From a bacterium (GTDB lineage: Bacteria; CAIWAD01): a DNA stretch of 9,508 nt. Below are positions 325 through 9,508 of this stretch, in pieces (position 1 is the stretch's first letter; the number at the start of each line of letters is the position of its first letter). The notes beneath the pieces were generated by a model. That model worked only from the letters and a program-made list of their open reading frames with translations, ran no database searches and was not told where the DNA came from. The stretch spans positions 1 through 9,508 of the forward strand of contig JAUIFJ010000060.1 of NCBI GenBank assembly GCA_030429345.1. Direction: 5' to 3'. The translations under genes were made by a program, and so were the position numbers.

Positions 325-1248
325 ATGTTTCGTCAAGCGTTCTCTTTCTTGATCCCGGCCAACATGTATTCCGTCGCTCTTGCGATGATCCTCGCAACGG
401 CTGTCACACAGGCCGGCATTGGCGTCTGGACCGAGATCCCAACTGCCAGCGATGAATTCGGCTGTGTTTACATCAGTGACTCAAATGAGTGGATTGTTTG
501 CAGTTTCCATTGGTCACCAGATCTTGGGGATAGTTGGGTAGCATACGATCAACCAGGAATGACACTACCACCAGTCCTCTCATCCACTGCAAATCCTCCG
601 CGTGTATTGTACTTCGATCCGATTGCAGAACGATTTCACAGCACCACTGACTTCGGTGTTACATGGCTATTCAATGACTTTGGTTCAACAGATCTGCAAA
701 TAGATGTCGAGTCGCCGAATATTCTCTATGGCGCATCATTCGATGACTCTTTTATTGTAAGTAGTGACTATGGTGAAACCTGGGCTACAACTGCCAACGC
801 TGGACCGATGAGAAACATAGCACAATCACAAGCGGTGCCTGACCTGATGTTGGCAACTGCCTGGGGATCTCAGGGATACAGCATCCTTCGCAGCCTAAAC
901 AGAGGACAAAGCTGGACCGTACTACATGATCCATTTCCAGATGACCAACAGACATATAGCAATCCGCCCATCAAAGTTGGGCTATCCCCCTTGGTAGACT
1001 CATTGGCTTTTCTGGTTACGAGGGATCAAGTTGATGGCAATGGAGGAAGACTTTGGCGATCTGTGGACGCAGGCACAAGCTGGCTGGAAGTTGACCTTAC
1101 GAATGTTCCTATGCGCTATGCAGATTATGATACCAGGCTGTTCTTCCACCCCTCGCAGGAAGATGTCATCTACTGGCAGGTTGCGGCAAGGGATTCATTG
1201 TGGCGGAGTACAGGATTGTTGCGAAGTCTCGACAGCGGCTTGAGTTGA
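325..1248 (+). CDS. secreted Asp-box (BNR-like) beta-propeller protein, cut short by an in-frame TGA
   Basis: The ATG at 325 is preferred over an upstream TTG at 181: a GAGG lies 8 bases before it, and it opens a hydrophobic signal peptide (residues 1-30, core about 15-27, cleavage near TQA-G). An ATG at 364 is an alternative start. The mature part is built of Asp-box repeats of the S-x-D-x-G-x-x-W type: SPDLGDSW (64-71), TTDFGVTW (107-114), SSDYGETW (146-153), SLNRGQSW (190-197, Asp replaced by Asn) and SVDAGTSW (246-253). Such repeats form the blades of sialidase-like and sortilin-like propellers. No catalytic arginine triad or other enzyme signature is evident, so a glycosidase role is not claimed. 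The frame ends at TGA 1246-1248, inside a sixth repeat, SLDSGLS-stop. The same frame continues directly downstream to a sorting domain, so the natural product is probably 448 residues ending at 1671. AT-rich compared with the enzyme genes downstream (about 43% GC in 481-540). Confidence 0.8.
   Translation: MFRQAFSFLIPANMYSVALAMILATAVTQAGIGVWTEIPTASDEFGCVYISDSNEWIVCSFHWSPDLGDSWVAYDQPGMTLPPVLSSTANPPRVLYFDPIAERFHSTTDFGVTWLFNDFGSTDLQIDVESPNILYGASFDDSFIVSSDYGETWATTANAGPMRNIAQSQAVPDLMLATAWGSQGYSILRSLNRGQSWTVLHDPFPDDQQTYSNPPIKVGLSPLVDSLAFLVTRDQVDGNGGRLWRSVDAGTSWLEVDLTNVPMRYADYDTRLFFHPSQEDVIYWQVAARDSLWRSTGLLRSLDSGLS
1246..1248 (+). other. in-frame TGA at the conserved tryptophan of an Asp-box
   Basis: This is codon 308 counted from the ATG at 325. 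The flanking translation is RSLDSGLS-stop-HALGVDPP. The two preceding repeats read RSLNRGQSW-TVL and RSVDAGTSW-LEV, so the missing residue is Trp and a single G-to-A change (TGG to TGA) explains the stop. The next base is C. The genome does not appear to read TGA as Trp throughout, because the 814-residue neighbour ends in TGA directly after its canonical KVLLVK tail. Confidence 0.85.
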
Positions 1249-1671
1249 CATGCCCTGGGAGTCGATCCACCAGAATGTACTTTCAATAGTTGGGCGTCAA
1301 TGGGTGGATTTGATCCACCATCATTTCTTCTCACTTGTAATGGCACTCTCTACGAATTCACCGACACCACCGGCATGGAAGTCTCCGTTGATCCCGCCCT
1401 TCTCCCTGCCTCTTTTAATCTTTCCCCTGCCGTGCCCAATCCCTTCAATCCGGTAACACGGCTGAGCTTGACTCTGGCCGAAAGCGGCCCGGCGCAAGTG
1501 AAGGTATACAACATCCGCGGGCAATTGGTTCTATCGATTCTTGACGAGGATCTCGCCCCCGGGCGCTACGATCTGCATGTGAACGGCTCGGGACTGGCCA
1601 GCGGCGTATACATCGTTGCCGCCACAAGCCATGGACAACAGCAGCACCAGAAAATTCTGCTGCTTAAATAG
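1249..1671 (+). pseudogene. in-frame remainder of the Asp-box protein, with C-terminal T9SS sorting domain
   Basis: This stretch is in the same reading frame as the gene before it and is separated from it only by the TGA. It starts with HALGVDPPECTFNSW and runs through a short linker into a sorting domain encoded from about 1408. That domain has PNPFNP, then VYNIRG, then LASGVY, and ends KILLLK before a TAG stop. In type IX secretion this domain directs export across the outer membrane and is often removed when the protein is anchored. The fragment has no signal peptide, and its first Met (1300) has no ribosome site, so it is unlikely to be a gene of its own. It is translated only if the TGA is read through or is a sequence error. 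Confidence 0.75.
1303..1319 (+). other. perfect 7-bp hairpin with TTG loop
   Basis: GGTGGAT (1303-1309) pairs with ATCCACC (1313-1319) around a 3-base loop. It lies 54 bases downstream of the in-frame TGA. The right arm belongs to a 9-base direct repeat, GATCCACCA, found at 1264-1272 and 1312-1320, which encodes a repeated DPP. It is probably a by-product of that small coding duplication. It is noted because hairpins after a leaky stop can affect readthrough. Confidence 0.4.
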
Positions 1672-1679: not shown

Positions 1680-4124
1680 GTGAAGTCCGGAATGAAGCAT
1701 CTCTTGGGGTGGGCCCTCGCTCTGCTGGGGCCCGCCCTGGTTGCCCATAGCGCAGTCTTATCCGTGCCGGCGGAGCATGAGTCCATTCAGCAGGCGCTGG
1801 ACGCCAGCGCCGTCGGGGATACCGTGCGAGTTGCCCCCGGCGTCTACCAGGAGAACATCCTGGCGCCTGCGCATGCCTTCACGCTTCAATCCCACTACCC
1901 GCTTTCGCGCGACTCGAGCGACTGGCATGAGACAATCCTGGATGGCGGCGGCCTTGGAAGCGTCATCACAATCGAATCTACACAGGGAGGATGGACCCGG
2001 ATACAGGGCCTGGTCATTCGCAATGGAAACGGAGGCGACCAAGCCGGTGGGATTCACTGTGATTGTCCGTTCTCGGAGAGCGAAAACAATCTGGAGTTAA
2101 GCTCACTAATTTTTAGTGCTCACCAAACAACTACCGCCCTGTCAACTGACGCTTACATCGATGGATACGTGGAAAACCTTGTGTTGCGAAATACGATTTT
2201 CGACAACACCACCAACCAGCCACGTAGGAGATTTTGGGCCGGGCTACCCAATGCACGAGTAGATTCTGTCCGATTCTTGGGAAATGGTCTCCAGGGGGCG
2301 CCTGGCGGCATTAGCGCCGGCTCCTTGTTTGTCGCCGATGTACTCGTTCGGGACTACACTATGAGTGAGGCAAATAGCAGATTTGGCTTGTCCAGCAGCG
2401 TTATGGGAGATCTGCGTCGTATACAGATTGAGGGAAATGAAACGCCACATACAAGTATTGCCCAAATGGGTAGCTCTCGTGATTCAGGAGGCATAATTCG
2501 AATCCGCGATGTGCTGTTCCGTGAAAATGTCCACCACCATGTCCCCGACCTGACCAGTTCTCAAAGCTCTCTTTCCATCAGTGGGGACAGGATCGACATC
2601 GATTCGCTTGTCGTAGAGGAGAACTATTCCGCCAACAGCCAGATTCTTGGCATCGAAACTCATGGTGATACAACATTGTTCTGCGGTTCGGTAAATCACT
2701 TGATCGTCCGGAACAACCAGTCCGGTGACTCCGTGCTCTACGAGCAGGACAGCGGCCAGATCGCAAAAATCGTGGGCTGCAACATTCGAAACAGCCTCTT
2801 CACCGGCAATCGAAGCGAGCTGCCATTTACTTCCCCGGGAAACAGCGAAGCAACCTGGGGCGGAAGCCTGTATCTCGGGCATGCGCGGCACAGGGATACG
2901 CTGTACATCGAGAACACCGAGTTCAGCCACAATCGCTTGACGGACCGCGACGACTACTCTCAGGTCTCCGGAGAATACATGGTCGCCAATTTCGGGCATG
3001 CCATCTACCTGCGCGTAGAGGGGGAGGCAAATGTGGTCATGCGGAACTGCGTTGCGCACAATAATCAGTTGGTGAATCCCTGCCCGGAAATTGACTTCTG
3101 GTGGAGTTTGGGAGGCACAGTTTATGCCTTCATGAATGGCGATTCCACCAGCATCCGCATCGAGGACTGCTCCTTCACCGAAAACCAGGATGGCGCGCTG
3201 CATGCGAGCGGGAGTGGACAGGTTCTCATTCGGAACTGCGCCTTGCGAGACAATGAGCGCTTCGGAATCTATTCGGCTGCAGGCTTGTCAGACATCCGCA
3301 ATGTCTGGATTTCAGGCACGACACAAGTCGATGTGCAAACGGAGATTGTGCCGAGCAGGCAGGTGCCACTACTTCAGGAGGCCGCGATTCAGGTGCTCCG
3401 AAACCTGAGCATAACCCAGAATCAAACCACAAGCCTCTTGCGGCTGAATCCGCAATCATGGAGTCAATCCATCGTGGAGAATATTCTGGTCTGGGACAAT
3501 AACTATGAAGAACTTCAGGCGGTCTTTGGGAATCCTGACCAAGAGCAACCGGCCCTATTTCGCTACAGCCTGCTATCGGAAGAGGTCGAATTCGGCGAAG
3601 AAAACCTGATTGGAGTAGATCCTCTATTCCATGAAGAGTTGGGTTTTCCGTTTCTCTCGGCCAGTTCACCTTGTATCGACGCGGGTTGTCCGGACAGCCT
3701 CTACAACGACAGCGCGGATCCCGAAAACCCAGGCCTGGCACTCTGGCCCTCGCAGGGCGCGCTGCGCAATGACATCGGCTTCACAGGAGGCCCCTATGCA
3801 GGCACGCTGGAGCACCTTGTCCGTGTTCAACCTGGACCCGAAGAAAGCGGACCTTTGCCAACGACCGTGCAGCTGCTCCGGAATTATCCCAACCCCTTCA
3901 ACGCTCAGTCCCGTTTAGAGTACGTCCTGCCAACCGAAGGCTCCGTGTCCATTCAGTTGTTTGACATTCGGGGACGCATGCTGAAGCAATTATACACTGG
4001 ATTCCAGGGTGCCGGCTTGCAACAAATGACCCTGCAAGGCGATGGTTTATCCAGCGGCGTGTACTTCGTGAAGGTGGAATCACGAGGTACTGCTCAGGTA
4101 GAGAAAGTGCTGCTAGTGAAATGA
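1680..4124 (+). CDS. secreted right-handed parallel beta-helix protein with T9SS sorting domain
   Basis: The 814-residue product starts at GTG. Residues 1-24 form a signal peptide (core LLGWALALLGPALVA, cleavage near HSA). Residues about 33-60 (ESIQQALDAS, then GDTVRVAPGVYQENI) are the classic opening turn of pectin-lyase-like beta-helix proteins. Residues about 100-640 hold repeated short strands with many NN, RNC and IRN steps (for example VVMRNCVAHNN, IRIEDCSFTEN, VLIRNCALRDN), as in Asn-ladder coils. A closing block with VDPLF, SPCIDAG and LRNDIGFTGGP follows. Residues 729-814 are the sorting domain: NYPNPFNAQ, LFDIRGR, LSSGVYF, KVLLVK. No polysaccharide-lyase catalytic residues can be assigned, so adhesin or carbohydrate-binding roles are as likely as enzymatic ones. 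It is paralogous to the truncated gene at 6878-9058. The gene ends are GC-rich and the middle (about 2090-2480) is richer in AT. Confidence 0.9.
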   Translation: MKSGMKHLLGWALALLGPALVAHSAVLSVPAEHESIQQALDASAVGDTVRVAPGVYQENILAPAHAFTLQSHYPLSRDSSDWHETILDGGGLGSVITIESTQGGWTRIQGLVIRNGNGGDQAGGIHCDCPFSESENNLELSSLIFSAHQTTTALSTDAYIDGYVENLVLRNTIFDNTTNQPRRRFWAGLPNARVDSVRFLGNGLQGAPGGISAGSLFVADVLVRDYTMSEANSRFGLSSSVMGDLRRIQIEGNETPHTSIAQMGSSRDSGGIIRIRDVLFRENVHHHVPDLTSSQSSLSISGDRIDIDSLVVEENYSANSQILGIETHGDTTLFCGSVNHLIVRNNQSGDSVLYEQDSGQIAKIVGCNIRNSLFTGNRSELPFTSPGNSEATWGGSLYLGHARHRDTLYIENTEFSHNRLTDRDDYSQVSGEYMVANFGHAIYLRVEGEANVVMRNCVAHNNQLVNPCPEIDFWWSLGGTVYAFMNGDSTSIRIEDCSFTENQDGALHASGSGQVLIRNCALRDNERFGIYSAAGLSDIRNVWISGTTQVDVQTEIVPSRQVPLLQEAAIQVLRNLSITQNQTTSLLRLNPQSWSQSIVENILVWDNNYEELQAVFGNPDQEQPALFRYSLLSEEVEFGEENLIGVDPLFHEELGFPFLSASSPCIDAGCPDSLYNDSADPENPGLALWPSQGALRNDIGFTGGPYAGTLEHLVRVQPGPEESGPLPTTVQLLRNYPNPFNAQSRLEYVLPTEGSVSIQLFDIRGRMLKQLYTGFQGAGLQQMTLQGDGLSSGVYFVKVESRGTAQVEKVLLVK
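1707..1737 (+). promoter_or_regulatory. strong mRNA hairpin within the signal-peptide codons
   Basis: GGGTGGGCCC (1707-1716) pairs with GGGCCCGCCC (1728-1737) with only one U-G wobble, around an 11-base loop. It starts 27 bases after the GTG start. It could slow early elongation or hide the start region. It may also simply reflect GC-rich codons for LGWALALLGPAL. Confidence 0.35.
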
Positions 4125-4205: not shown

Positions 4206-4637
4206 ATGGGAGAGAAAAAAGACTCCACATACTGCGGCTGCCTCTACTATTCCGCCAGTGCCCTGGCCCGGGTGATGACCCGCATGGCCGATGAGAGCTT
4301 TGCGCCCACGGGGCTTTCCTCTTCCCTGGCCCTGCTGCTGATGACCGTGCACAAGCGGCCCGGCATCCAGCCTTGCGGGATCAGCGAGCAGATGCAGCTT
4401 AGCCCCTCCACCATAACACGATTGGTAGAGAAGCTGGAACACAAGGGCCTGATCGAGCGTCAATCCGAGGGGCGGACGACCCGCGTCTATCCCACCAGCG
4501 TCGGATCCGGTCTGAGCGCGAGCATCGAGGAAGCCTGGAAGAAGCTCTACGCGAAGTATTCCGGACTGCTGGGAGAAGAAAAGAGCCGCGAACTGACCGC
4601 CGCGATCTACGAGGCCAGTCGCCGCCTGGAAGGGTGA
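4206..4637 (+). CDS. MarR-family transcriptional regulator
   Basis: The 143-residue product has normal length for MarR proteins, which bind DNA as dimers through a winged helix-turn-helix. Residues about 13-50 are the N-terminal helices. Residues 54-84 are the helix-turn-helix, with recognition helix LSPSTITRLVEKLEHKGLIE. Residues 85-98 are the wing (RQSEGRTTRVYPTS), and residues 105-142 are the C-terminal dimerisation helices. Cysteines are at 10, 12 and 57. The CGCLYYSAS segment lies where OhrR-type members keep the LCF-type peroxide-sensing Cys, so redox or electrophile sensing is possible but unproven. The ATG at 4206 lacks a clear Shine-Dalgarno sequence. If the TTGCAT-17-TACACT promoter is used, the message would be nearly leaderless. 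Similar dyads lie upstream of this gene and of the next one, which fits control of both itself and the downstream reductase genes. Confidence 0.88.
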   Translation: MGEKKDSTYCGCLYYSASALARVMTRMADESFAPTGLSSSLALLLMTVHKRPGIQPCGISEQMQLSPSTITRLVEKLEHKGLIERQSEGRTTRVYPTSVGSGLSASIEEAWKKLYAKYSGLLGEEKSRELTAAIYEASRRLEG

Positions 4638-6877: not shown

Positions 6878-9058
6878 CTACCGGATGAGCAGCACTTTCT
6901 GCGTATGGGTGGTTTCGCCGGATTGTAGTCGAAGAAAGTACAGACCACTTGCCAATCCATCCGCGTGGTATTGGATCACATGATGCCCTGGCCGGAGTTT
7001 CTGGTGCGCAATGTCGGCGACGCGTCGACCAAGCATATCGAACAGGGAGACATGGATCTCCCGCTCGGACTGAACTTCAATGGGAAGGCTCAGCTGTGAA
7101 TTGAATGGATTGGGAAACACGGGGTCCACCCGGATTGCCGTCGGGCGTACGGAAACGAGTCCTTCGTCCTCTTGCGGGATTCCCACCCAAGTGGAATCCA
7201 GCCCGAATGCCCCGGGTCCACCCGTAAAGCCGATGTCGTTTCGCAATCCACCAAGACTAGGCCACAACGCGAATCCGGGGTGCTCGGCATCTTCCATGTC
7301 ATTGTCAGTTTCTACAGGATTACCTGCATCGACGCAGAGAGACTGCTCACTGAGCCAGGGTGCACCAAGAGTCGGGTCGTAGCCAGGTTCGTCCCCATGG
7401 ATGTTTCCCTCCCCGGGATACTCTTCGTTCAGGAAGGAATAGCTGATCAAGGGCGGAGGAAACTGCGAAGCCGAGTGTTCGGGGTGTACGAAGTACTCGC
7501 ACTGGTTCTGATGCAACAACAGATTCCTGGCTGACAGCTGCGGATAAAAGGGGCCATTGGTCCAGAACAGGAATTGGGTGGCATTGTTGGTCAAGGTGAT
7601 ATTGCGCACATTCGCGGATCGTATGTCCTGAAACCCGAAGACGACTTGATGCGGCAAGCTGGACAAGGCGAATGGATAGCTCAGGTTGGCCTCCCAGGAT
7701 TCTACTCCTTTGATGAAGACATTCGATGCGTCCAGCGTATCCACTCGGATCAGGGCCCCCATTCGTCCTACATCGACCACACGAAGATTGCGGAGAGTCA
7801 GGGTTCCTGCTCGCCCATATTCAAATCCGCCGTCATCGCAGTTCTGGATCAACACATCCTCTACCAGCACTTCCGCATGATAAGGCTCCGTCGGACCGGG
7901 CGGCACGAAAATCTGCATGCTGCTTCCGATCATGCGTGGTTCAAAACCAGGATCCGACCCCCACTCTTCCGGAACGGGGTTGTCTTGTCTACAATCCAGT
8001 ATTTGCACATTCTGAATGATCGCACGGTTCACTTGCCCATACTCGTCCACTCGAATAGACAGCATTCTCCCCAGGTTCGCGATTCGATTCAGATCCAATA
8101 CTGAATAGTCGTCGTGATCATTCACTGTATGGTTGCGTATCAGGATATCCCTGAATTGCCAAGCATCCAAACCAGGTCTACCCTGCACGCTGGCTCTCAA
8201 GGCAAGTCCAGCTCCTTTCGCAGCATCGACATCTCCATTCTCCTCACAGGGATAAATGTTCGAAGTGTTATTCTGGATCACAACATTCTCAAATCCAAAA
8301 CCTAGCGAAAAGACTAGCTGTCCACCGGAGTTTTCAAATGGACAATCCATATCTGGACCAGGAGGTGCCCCGACGGTGTTCTCTTCGAGTAGGATGTTTT
8401 TTGCTGTGCCGATACCTGTGGAAGTCATGCTGACAAGTTGTGATGTTTCAGAAAAGCAATTGCGTACTTCAAGCGAGTCAACGAAAACTGAATCACCAGC
8501 TGTGATCCAGAAAACAGGCGCTTCTGCCGGCCCATTGAAATCTGAAATTACAGTTACGCTATCAATAAAAACATTTCTAATAAGAACTGATTGTGGAGCT
8601 TCACCTACTCTTCTTATGATGAATCCGCAAGCCCCTTCACCAACGCAATTCCGCAGTACCATATCTTGCGCCCTTAGCACTCGCCTTGCGCCAAATCTAA
8701 ATCCACCGTGAATGAGTTCCAGCGACTCAGCTACTAAGTCTTGCACAACTAGTGTATCTCCTGAAACGTATATGGGGAATGATGGCAATCCTTCCTGCGC
8801 AAACCTTATGCCGCTGATTTCTACGTAATCAAGTTCAACTAAAGTAATTTGCGGATATGCACTTGAGTGTATTCCGTTGTCTCGATACAAGTGAAGTCTT
8901 ACGTCGGACAACGATACTCGTATGGCACGCTGCTGAGCAAAAAGGCTAGCGCCGTGAGCGGGAGACCTGTTCTGTACAAACTCAACACTCTGCAATCCAA
9001 GATTTACATTCTCTACAATGTGGATTCCTCCTCCGAGCAGCCAGTCGCCTTGCCCCCC
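6878..9058 (-). pseudogene. 5'-truncated beta-helix protein with T9SS sorting domain, cut by an IS256 insertion
   Basis: About 726 residues of native sequence remain, starting near GGQGDWLLGGGIHI. This aligns with NGGDQAGGIH at residues 117-126 of the 814-residue paralogue. The missing part would hold the signal peptide and first helix turns. Shared landmarks include HDDYS then IANLGR (paralogue: RDDYS, VANFGH), LALRASVQ-like coils with many RN and QN steps, CVDAGNP, and PGFALWPSLGGLRNDIGFTGG. The last 87 residues are the sorting domain: FPNPFNSQ, LFDMLGRR, LASGLYF, KVLLIR. The open frame continues upstream to an ATG at 9169, but those first 37 codons come from IS DNA, partly in an overlapping frame of the transposase, and give no signal peptide. 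The product could not be exported normally. GC falls from about 60% near the 3' end (6961-7020) to about 35% near 8521-8580. Confidence 0.82.
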
Positions 9059-9508
9059 GTCAAGTCCAAAAGTGTGTGCAAATTCAACTGGCCTTCCGAA
9101 GTGATAGCATTTCAAGTAATTCAGGATTAAGGTAGCGGCGCTCACTCCGCCACTCTTCGTCCTGCTCAACGGTCATCGCTGTGATCAGACGCAACAGACT
9201 GGCGCTGTTCGAGAAGATCCCCACCAGACGAACACGGCGGCGAAGTTCCCGATTGAAGCGTTCCAGCAGGTTGTTCGACCGAATCCGGAGCCAAAGCCCT
9301 TCCGGAAACTCCATGTGTGCCGTGATTTCAGGAGCAGCCGTTTCCAGCCAGTCCGCCAGACTTTGGTTCCAGCTGGAGACTTCGTTGGCCAGTTCTAAGA
9401 TCGCCTTCTCGGCCCCCTCCTTGCTGCTCAGTCGCAGCGCTGCTTTCAATCGCGCGTGTATTTCCTTCCGGTGCCGCTTCGGACATTTTCCCGTCAGGTT
9501 TTGCATGA
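9059..9508 (-). mobile_element. 3' end of an IS256-family insertion sequence (partial)
   Basis: The element includes the transposase C-terminus and the adjoining terminal DNA. Read inward from the left, the end is about GTCAAGTCCAAAAGTGTGTG (9059-9078). It lies 6 bases outside the transposase stop, as expected for the compact ends of this family. The boundary at about 9058/9059 is placed where similarity to the paralogous beta-helix protein begins; it may be off by several bases. The other end and the target duplication lie outside the window, so neither the terminal repeat nor the 8-9 bp duplication can be confirmed here. Confidence 0.7.
9084..9508 (-). CDS. IS256-family (mutator-type) transposase, C-terminal part
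   Basis: About 140 residues are visible and the frame runs off the right edge; the Met at 9506 is internal to a protein of about 400 residues in this family. The visible part covers the end of the DDE catalytic domain. RSNNLLERFNRELRRR (77-92 of the visible part) is the signature block around the catalytic Glu, here E82. It is followed by the basic helix, VGIFSNSASLLRLITAM, and the family-typical tail with DEEW and RRYL. The two catalytic Asp residues lie outside the window, so whether the transposase is intact cannot be judged. The TGA stop (9086-9084) is just inside the element's end. The gene points in the same direction as the beta-helix gene it interrupts. Confidence 0.9.
   Translation of the reverse strand, partial: MQNLTGKCPKRHRKEIHARLKAALRLSSKEGAEKAILELANEVSSWNQSLADWLETAAPEITAHMEFPEGLWLRIRSNNLLERFNRELRRRVRLVGIFSNSASLLRLITAMTVEQDEEWRSERRYLNPELLEMLSLRKAS

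Follow-up and report, generated by a model that had tools for sequence, protein, structure and literature searches.

The window analysed here is an entire contig of 9508 bases from a draft genome of 4.24 Mb, 98% complete and split into 92 contigs; we took this genome to be a metagenome assembly, and the base at the site discussed below is a consensus call. Positions 325-1671 of the forward strand hold the gene of a putative T9SS-exported Asp-box protein whose translated frame contains a single internal stop, TGA at 1246-1248, and translation confirmed the statement of the first-pass annotation that the frame is continuous apart from this codon. The features of the frame are as follows.

325..1248, forward strand: N-terminal translated part, a hydrophobic leader followed by Asp-box (BNR/sortilin-VPS10-like) repeats, with 307 aa before the TGA (PF15902 match and translation)
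1225..1248, forward strand: sixth Asp-box, S-L-D-S-G-L-S-[TGA] (paralogue equivalent STDGGNTW)
1246..1248, forward strand: in-frame TGA at an Asp-box Trp position (Trp in 63/68 aligned homologous segments, with some bias toward Trp from the query)
1249..1671, forward strand: in-frame continuation with the end of the repeat domain, a linker, a T9SS type A sorting domain and a TAG stop (open for 140 aa, full-length alignment with an intact paralogue)
1435..1659, forward strand: core of the Por_Secre_tail sorting domain (37.8 bits)

Domains on either side of the stop

Six boxes of the form [ST]-x-[DN]-x-G-x-x-W end at residues 71, 114, 153, 197, 253 and 308 of the frame, and the TGA, codon 308, stands where the Trp of the sixth box would be. 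The earlier description of a sixth S-x-D-x-G-x-x-W repeat thus stands as regards the Trp position and fails as regards the strict motif in every box, since T opens box 2 and N replaces D in box 4. The base 3′ of the stop is C (context TGA CAT); in E. coli a TGAC context makes for weak termination. The N-terminal part matches PF15902 (sortilin/VPS10-type) at 36 bits against a cut-off of 33. With its six boxes and this match the protein resembles known Asp-box/BNR and sortilin-VPS10 repeat proteins; it differs from them in that BNR models score under their own cut-off on this gene copy and that the last box has a stop for its Trp.

Translation probably starts at 325, judging from a weak upstream GAGG, with an ATG at 364 as the alternative. 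Residues 13-30 of the translation form a hydrophobic stretch, which may be a signal peptide and appears as a helix in an AlphaFold2 model built from a two-row alignment; that model was poor (mean pLDDT 44) and no structural claim was built on it.

After the stop, 140 codons run on with no further lesion. This stretch scores 36.9 bits against Pfam Por_Secre_tail (PF18962; cut-off 27) and 36.5 bits against NCBIfam TIGR04183 (cut-off 23), which bears out the earlier claim of an intact T9SS sorting domain beyond the TGA. The genome has about 150 genes with a PF18962 sorting domain, and because the domain at 1435..1659 ranks 43rd among these 150 by score, it has no visible decay. The genome also encodes the translocon component SprA (a summed score of 663.9 bits across the frame, against a cut-off of 200). 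In its sorting domain and its host the gene is therefore like other T9SS cargo with a type A CTD; unlike them, it has a stop that splits the sorting domain from the cargo domain, so that under the standard code the two are not translated together.

GC content at third codon positions is 0.50 in 325-1671 and 0.40 in the intact paralogue described below, against a median of 0.82 for the genome’s sorting-domain genes. These low values suggest that both Asp-box T9SS genes are accessory or recently acquired.

Homologues and the ancestral state of the frame

An intact paralogue of 439 aa lies on another contig of the same genome (C8, L106:405-1724). It shares 31% identity with the interrupted gene, has no stop, aligns from end to end and carries Trp at the site equivalent to the TGA. 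The alignment spans the TGA site together with the roughly 60 residues that separate the stop from the sorting domain, and the linker just past the site is clearly similar in the two proteins (...PPECTFNSW... in the interrupted gene and ...PPTYTFGSL... in the paralogue, followed by DTT in both).

In 68 aligned homologous segments from 44 loci, the residue at the TGA site is Trp in 63, Phe in three, Tyr in one and Thr in one, with neither a stop nor Cys in any, although the query itself has Trp at the site and thereby biases the alignment somewhat toward Trp. Apart from this gene itself, no internal stop was found among the matches listed from a search of 386 genomes, all of them paralogues or distant relatives. 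A single-protein search of genome contigs found no relative, and a scan with a two-row alignment reached distant ones only; nor did three genomes of the same family yield a close orthologue.

Because the intact paralogue and 63 of the 68 segments (subject to the same bias) have Trp at the site, the TGA is an interruption of a frame that was once continuous, and the open frame beyond it is not due to chance. The codon in relatives, which the first-pass annotation had singled out for comparison, is thus nearly always one for Trp, with no stop in any of these paralogues and distant relatives.

Decoding of TGA in the source genome

The title claim of the first-pass annotation was that readthrough might switch the protein between an anchored and an unanchored form: tRNA-Trp would misread TGA often enough to be useful, and the gene would yield a truncated, unsorted form and a full-length, sorted form; if true, this would be a translational switch over T9SS export. 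The TGA does occupy a Trp position with C next to it, and the sequence beyond it is intact; in one study UGA allowed more readthrough than UAG in the bacteria examined (PMC9481147), and dN/dS falls below 1 for many in-frame stops in bacterial genes (PMC7918605). The authors of the latter nonetheless concluded that many in-frame stops are brief and that functional recoding does not account for the vast majority, and the genome itself gives no support to such a switch.

ARAGORN found one tRNA-Trp, with anticodon CCA, in which we read by eye a 5-bp anticodon stem (ACGGA/TCCGT) and G24. None of the features that would let it suppress UGA, namely a UCA anticodon, a 4-bp anticodon stem or G24A (PMC13092985), was present in this tRNA-Trp; the anticodon scan covered all but about ten of the 43 tRNA hits. 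Apart from having TGA at a Trp position, then, the case is unlike the UGA-to-Trp decoding by altered tRNA-Trp described in that work, where the anticodon stem has 4 bp, and TGA is here a regular stop: it terminates 40 of the 150 sorting-domain genes, eight of these in the same TGAC context as at 1246-1248, and also ends open reading frames of the window at 4206, 4690 and 5386. With a canonical tRNA-Trp, release factor 2 present, the stop seen in none of the paralogues and distant relatives compared, and TGA the normal terminator of 40 genes of its class, we found no positive evidence for the title claim and judge the switch very improbable. The cut product would lose not only the sorting domain but the final Asp-box strand as well, which again counts against a useful switch.

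Another reading is a maintained leaky stop, at which a small, possibly condition-dependent insertion of Trp would give a trickle of surface-anchored protein beside the truncated form; to this, too, we give very little credence.

Reassignment of UGA to Trp throughout the genome was considered and rejected, given the presence of release factor 2 (RF2, 463.7 bits), the regular use of TGA as a stop and the canonical tRNA-Trp.

A split gene was also considered, in which the downstream part is made separately from an ATG at 1300, 17 codons past the TGA, and has a role of its own. The targets of T9SS sorting domains are proteins already exported across the inner membrane, and there is neither a Shine-Dalgarno-like sequence upstream of 1300 nor an evident signal peptide after that ATG. 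On these grounds internal restart at 1300 was rejected, and a separate role for the downstream part is exceedingly unlikely.

TAG, usually the rarest stop in bacteria, predominates in the sorting-domain genes, with 91 of 150, followed by TGA (40) and TAA (19).

A probable recent nonsense codon at a conserved Trp

Very probably, the frame at 325-1671 is the gene of a T9SS-exported Asp-box protein in which a conserved Trp codon has recently given way to a nonsense codon, and it is now a null or nearly null allele. The first-pass annotation had offered a recent nonsense mutation as a simpler reading, and it is this one that the comparisons support, with Trp in 63 of the 68 segments (the query’s bias toward Trp included) and the stop private to this gene among the matches listed. 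We infer all three of its components, namely the recency of the change, the loss of export and the loss of function.

On this nonsense reading, translation would end at 1248, after 307 residues. The truncated product would keep its leader, which would probably export it to the periplasm; without the final Asp-box strand and without its sorting domain, it would not be delivered by the T9SS and would probably stay in the periplasm or be degraded. It is for this reason that we predict an allele with little or no function. That the downstream part is still intact would reflect either a recent origin of the change or its being polymorphic in the population sampled, and not continued use, even though 140 downstream codons free of lesions would also be expected under some continued use.

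How readily such a codon arises was estimated by weighting all single-step nonsense changes in the gene, on the assumption of a 4:1 weight for transitions: TGA at any position makes up 32% of outcomes, TGA in place of a Trp codon 19%, and TGA in place of one of the five strict Asp-box Trps 6.6%. A TGA at an Asp-box Trp is thus not an improbable product of nonsense change and not very surprising; it is notable mainly because it was noticed. The case is a caution: chance readily produces a TGA in place of Trp with the frame after it unbroken.

In-frame stops are widespread in bacterial genes and tend to last a short evolutionary time (PMC7918605), which fits the TGA at 1246-1248. Like the nonsense-interrupted pseudogenes and short-lived stops of that work, this is a lone in-frame stop in an otherwise intact gene, unseen in relatives and with both flanks conserved; it differs in that the comparison here is with a 31%-identical paralogue and distant relatives, no close orthologue having been found. 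Some misreading of the stop by tRNA-Trp is physically expected, at a level that depends on the species: UGA readthrough in one reporter was about 12% in E. coli and 0.04-0.08% in two Pseudomonas species (PMC9481147). Traces of full-length protein may be made, but there is no sign that the site is retained for this.

As a nonsense mutation the change would be of little consequence, turning off one accessory surface-protein gene among about 150 T9SS cargo genes.

Decay of other T9SS genes

Interrupted frames were surveyed among the 150 CTD genes of the genome, a screen that misses lesions near the start of a gene, such as that in copy A of the pair described next; it was used in place of a six-frame screen trained on all long open reading frames, which was swamped by antisense shadow frames.

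One interrupted gene from this survey, on contig C61 (L186, C61:7100-15800, minus strand), proved to belong to a tandem pair of sorting-domain genes in which neither copy is whole. In copy A, a CAA codon of copy B is replaced by TAA; in copy B, a CGA codon of copy A is replaced by TGA, and this TGA is not at a Trp. Each copy is also thrown out of frame by a one-base indel. Both copies look to have been broken by ordinary changes.

Within the window itself, a beta-helix T9SS gene on the minus strand (6878-9169) is homologous to its neighbour at 1692-4124, without a matching N-terminus or leader. At 6878-9508, on the minus strand, this gene adjoins the 3′ part of a Mutator-family transposase, whose sequence recurs at the termini of several other contigs. 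The beta-helix gene is a probable case of disruption by an insertion sequence, with its start lost at the transposase. Because of this apparent loss of the N-terminus and of the TGA in 325-1671, two of the three T9SS genes of the contig look damaged. Decay of T9SS genes is ordinary in this genome.

These lesions also bear on whether the TGA is real in most cells. It could be an error of assembly or base calling, or a variant from a minority strain that entered the consensus, with the gene intact in the majority of cells. The site lies on a single contig of a 92-contig draft, one that ends at a multi-copy transposase, and the rest of the gene is intact, as would be expected on that account. Against it, a lone substitution is an uncommon type of error in a consensus assembly, and other CTD genes of the genome do have lesions, made visible by comparison of the tandem copies; we consider an error or variant unlikely.

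Selenocysteine and a thioredoxin/ResA-like T9SS family

The genome encodes a tRNA-Sec (anticodon TCA) and SelB, and another of its T9SS genes has a likely genuine Sec TGA. The organism could thus decode UGA as Sec, and in this equipment and in the placing of a TGA within a T9SS gene the window’s case is like that of bacterial selenoproteins. The likeness ends at the site itself, where relatives have Trp or Phe/Tyr/Thr and never Cys, where the redox motifs CxxU and UxxC are absent, and where no hairpin after the TGA at 1246-1248 fits the constraints on a bacterial SECIS, namely a loop of 3-9 nt that has a G among its first two nucleotides and lies at a distance of 16-37 nt from the UGA (PMC13188914). 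The hairpin test discriminates weakly, since 42% of random in-frame sites pass it, as do 37% of terminal stops, and we used only its negative result, as support. Insertion of Sec at 1246-1248 is largely refuted by the Trp site, the missing redox motif and the missing hairpin, and we give it almost no probability.

The other T9SS gene came from the survey of the 150 sorting-domain genes. It is a thioredoxin-like gene on contig C44 (L164:3481-5292) with an in-frame TGA in the motif GATW-U-PAC, and a SECIS-like hairpin fits there, with a loop GUU starting 17 nt past the UGA. It belongs to a family that has the look of a recoded TGA in this lineage, whereas the TGA of the window is without any such mark.

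A literature search for T9SS-exported selenoproteins found no matching paper. From their sequences, the members of this thioredoxin/ResA-like family are apparently conserved T9SS-exported selenoproteins, and we regard such a family, with T9SS sorting domains, as more interesting than the window’s TGA. Genes of this type, which combine an in-frame TGA in UxxC (mostly GATW-U-PxC) with a T9SS-type sorting tail at the C-terminus, were seen in six genomes: the present one, three others from its family, another from its class and one more distant. In each of the five other genomes the relative of the C44 gene has both UxxC and a C-terminal tail that resembles a sorting domain.
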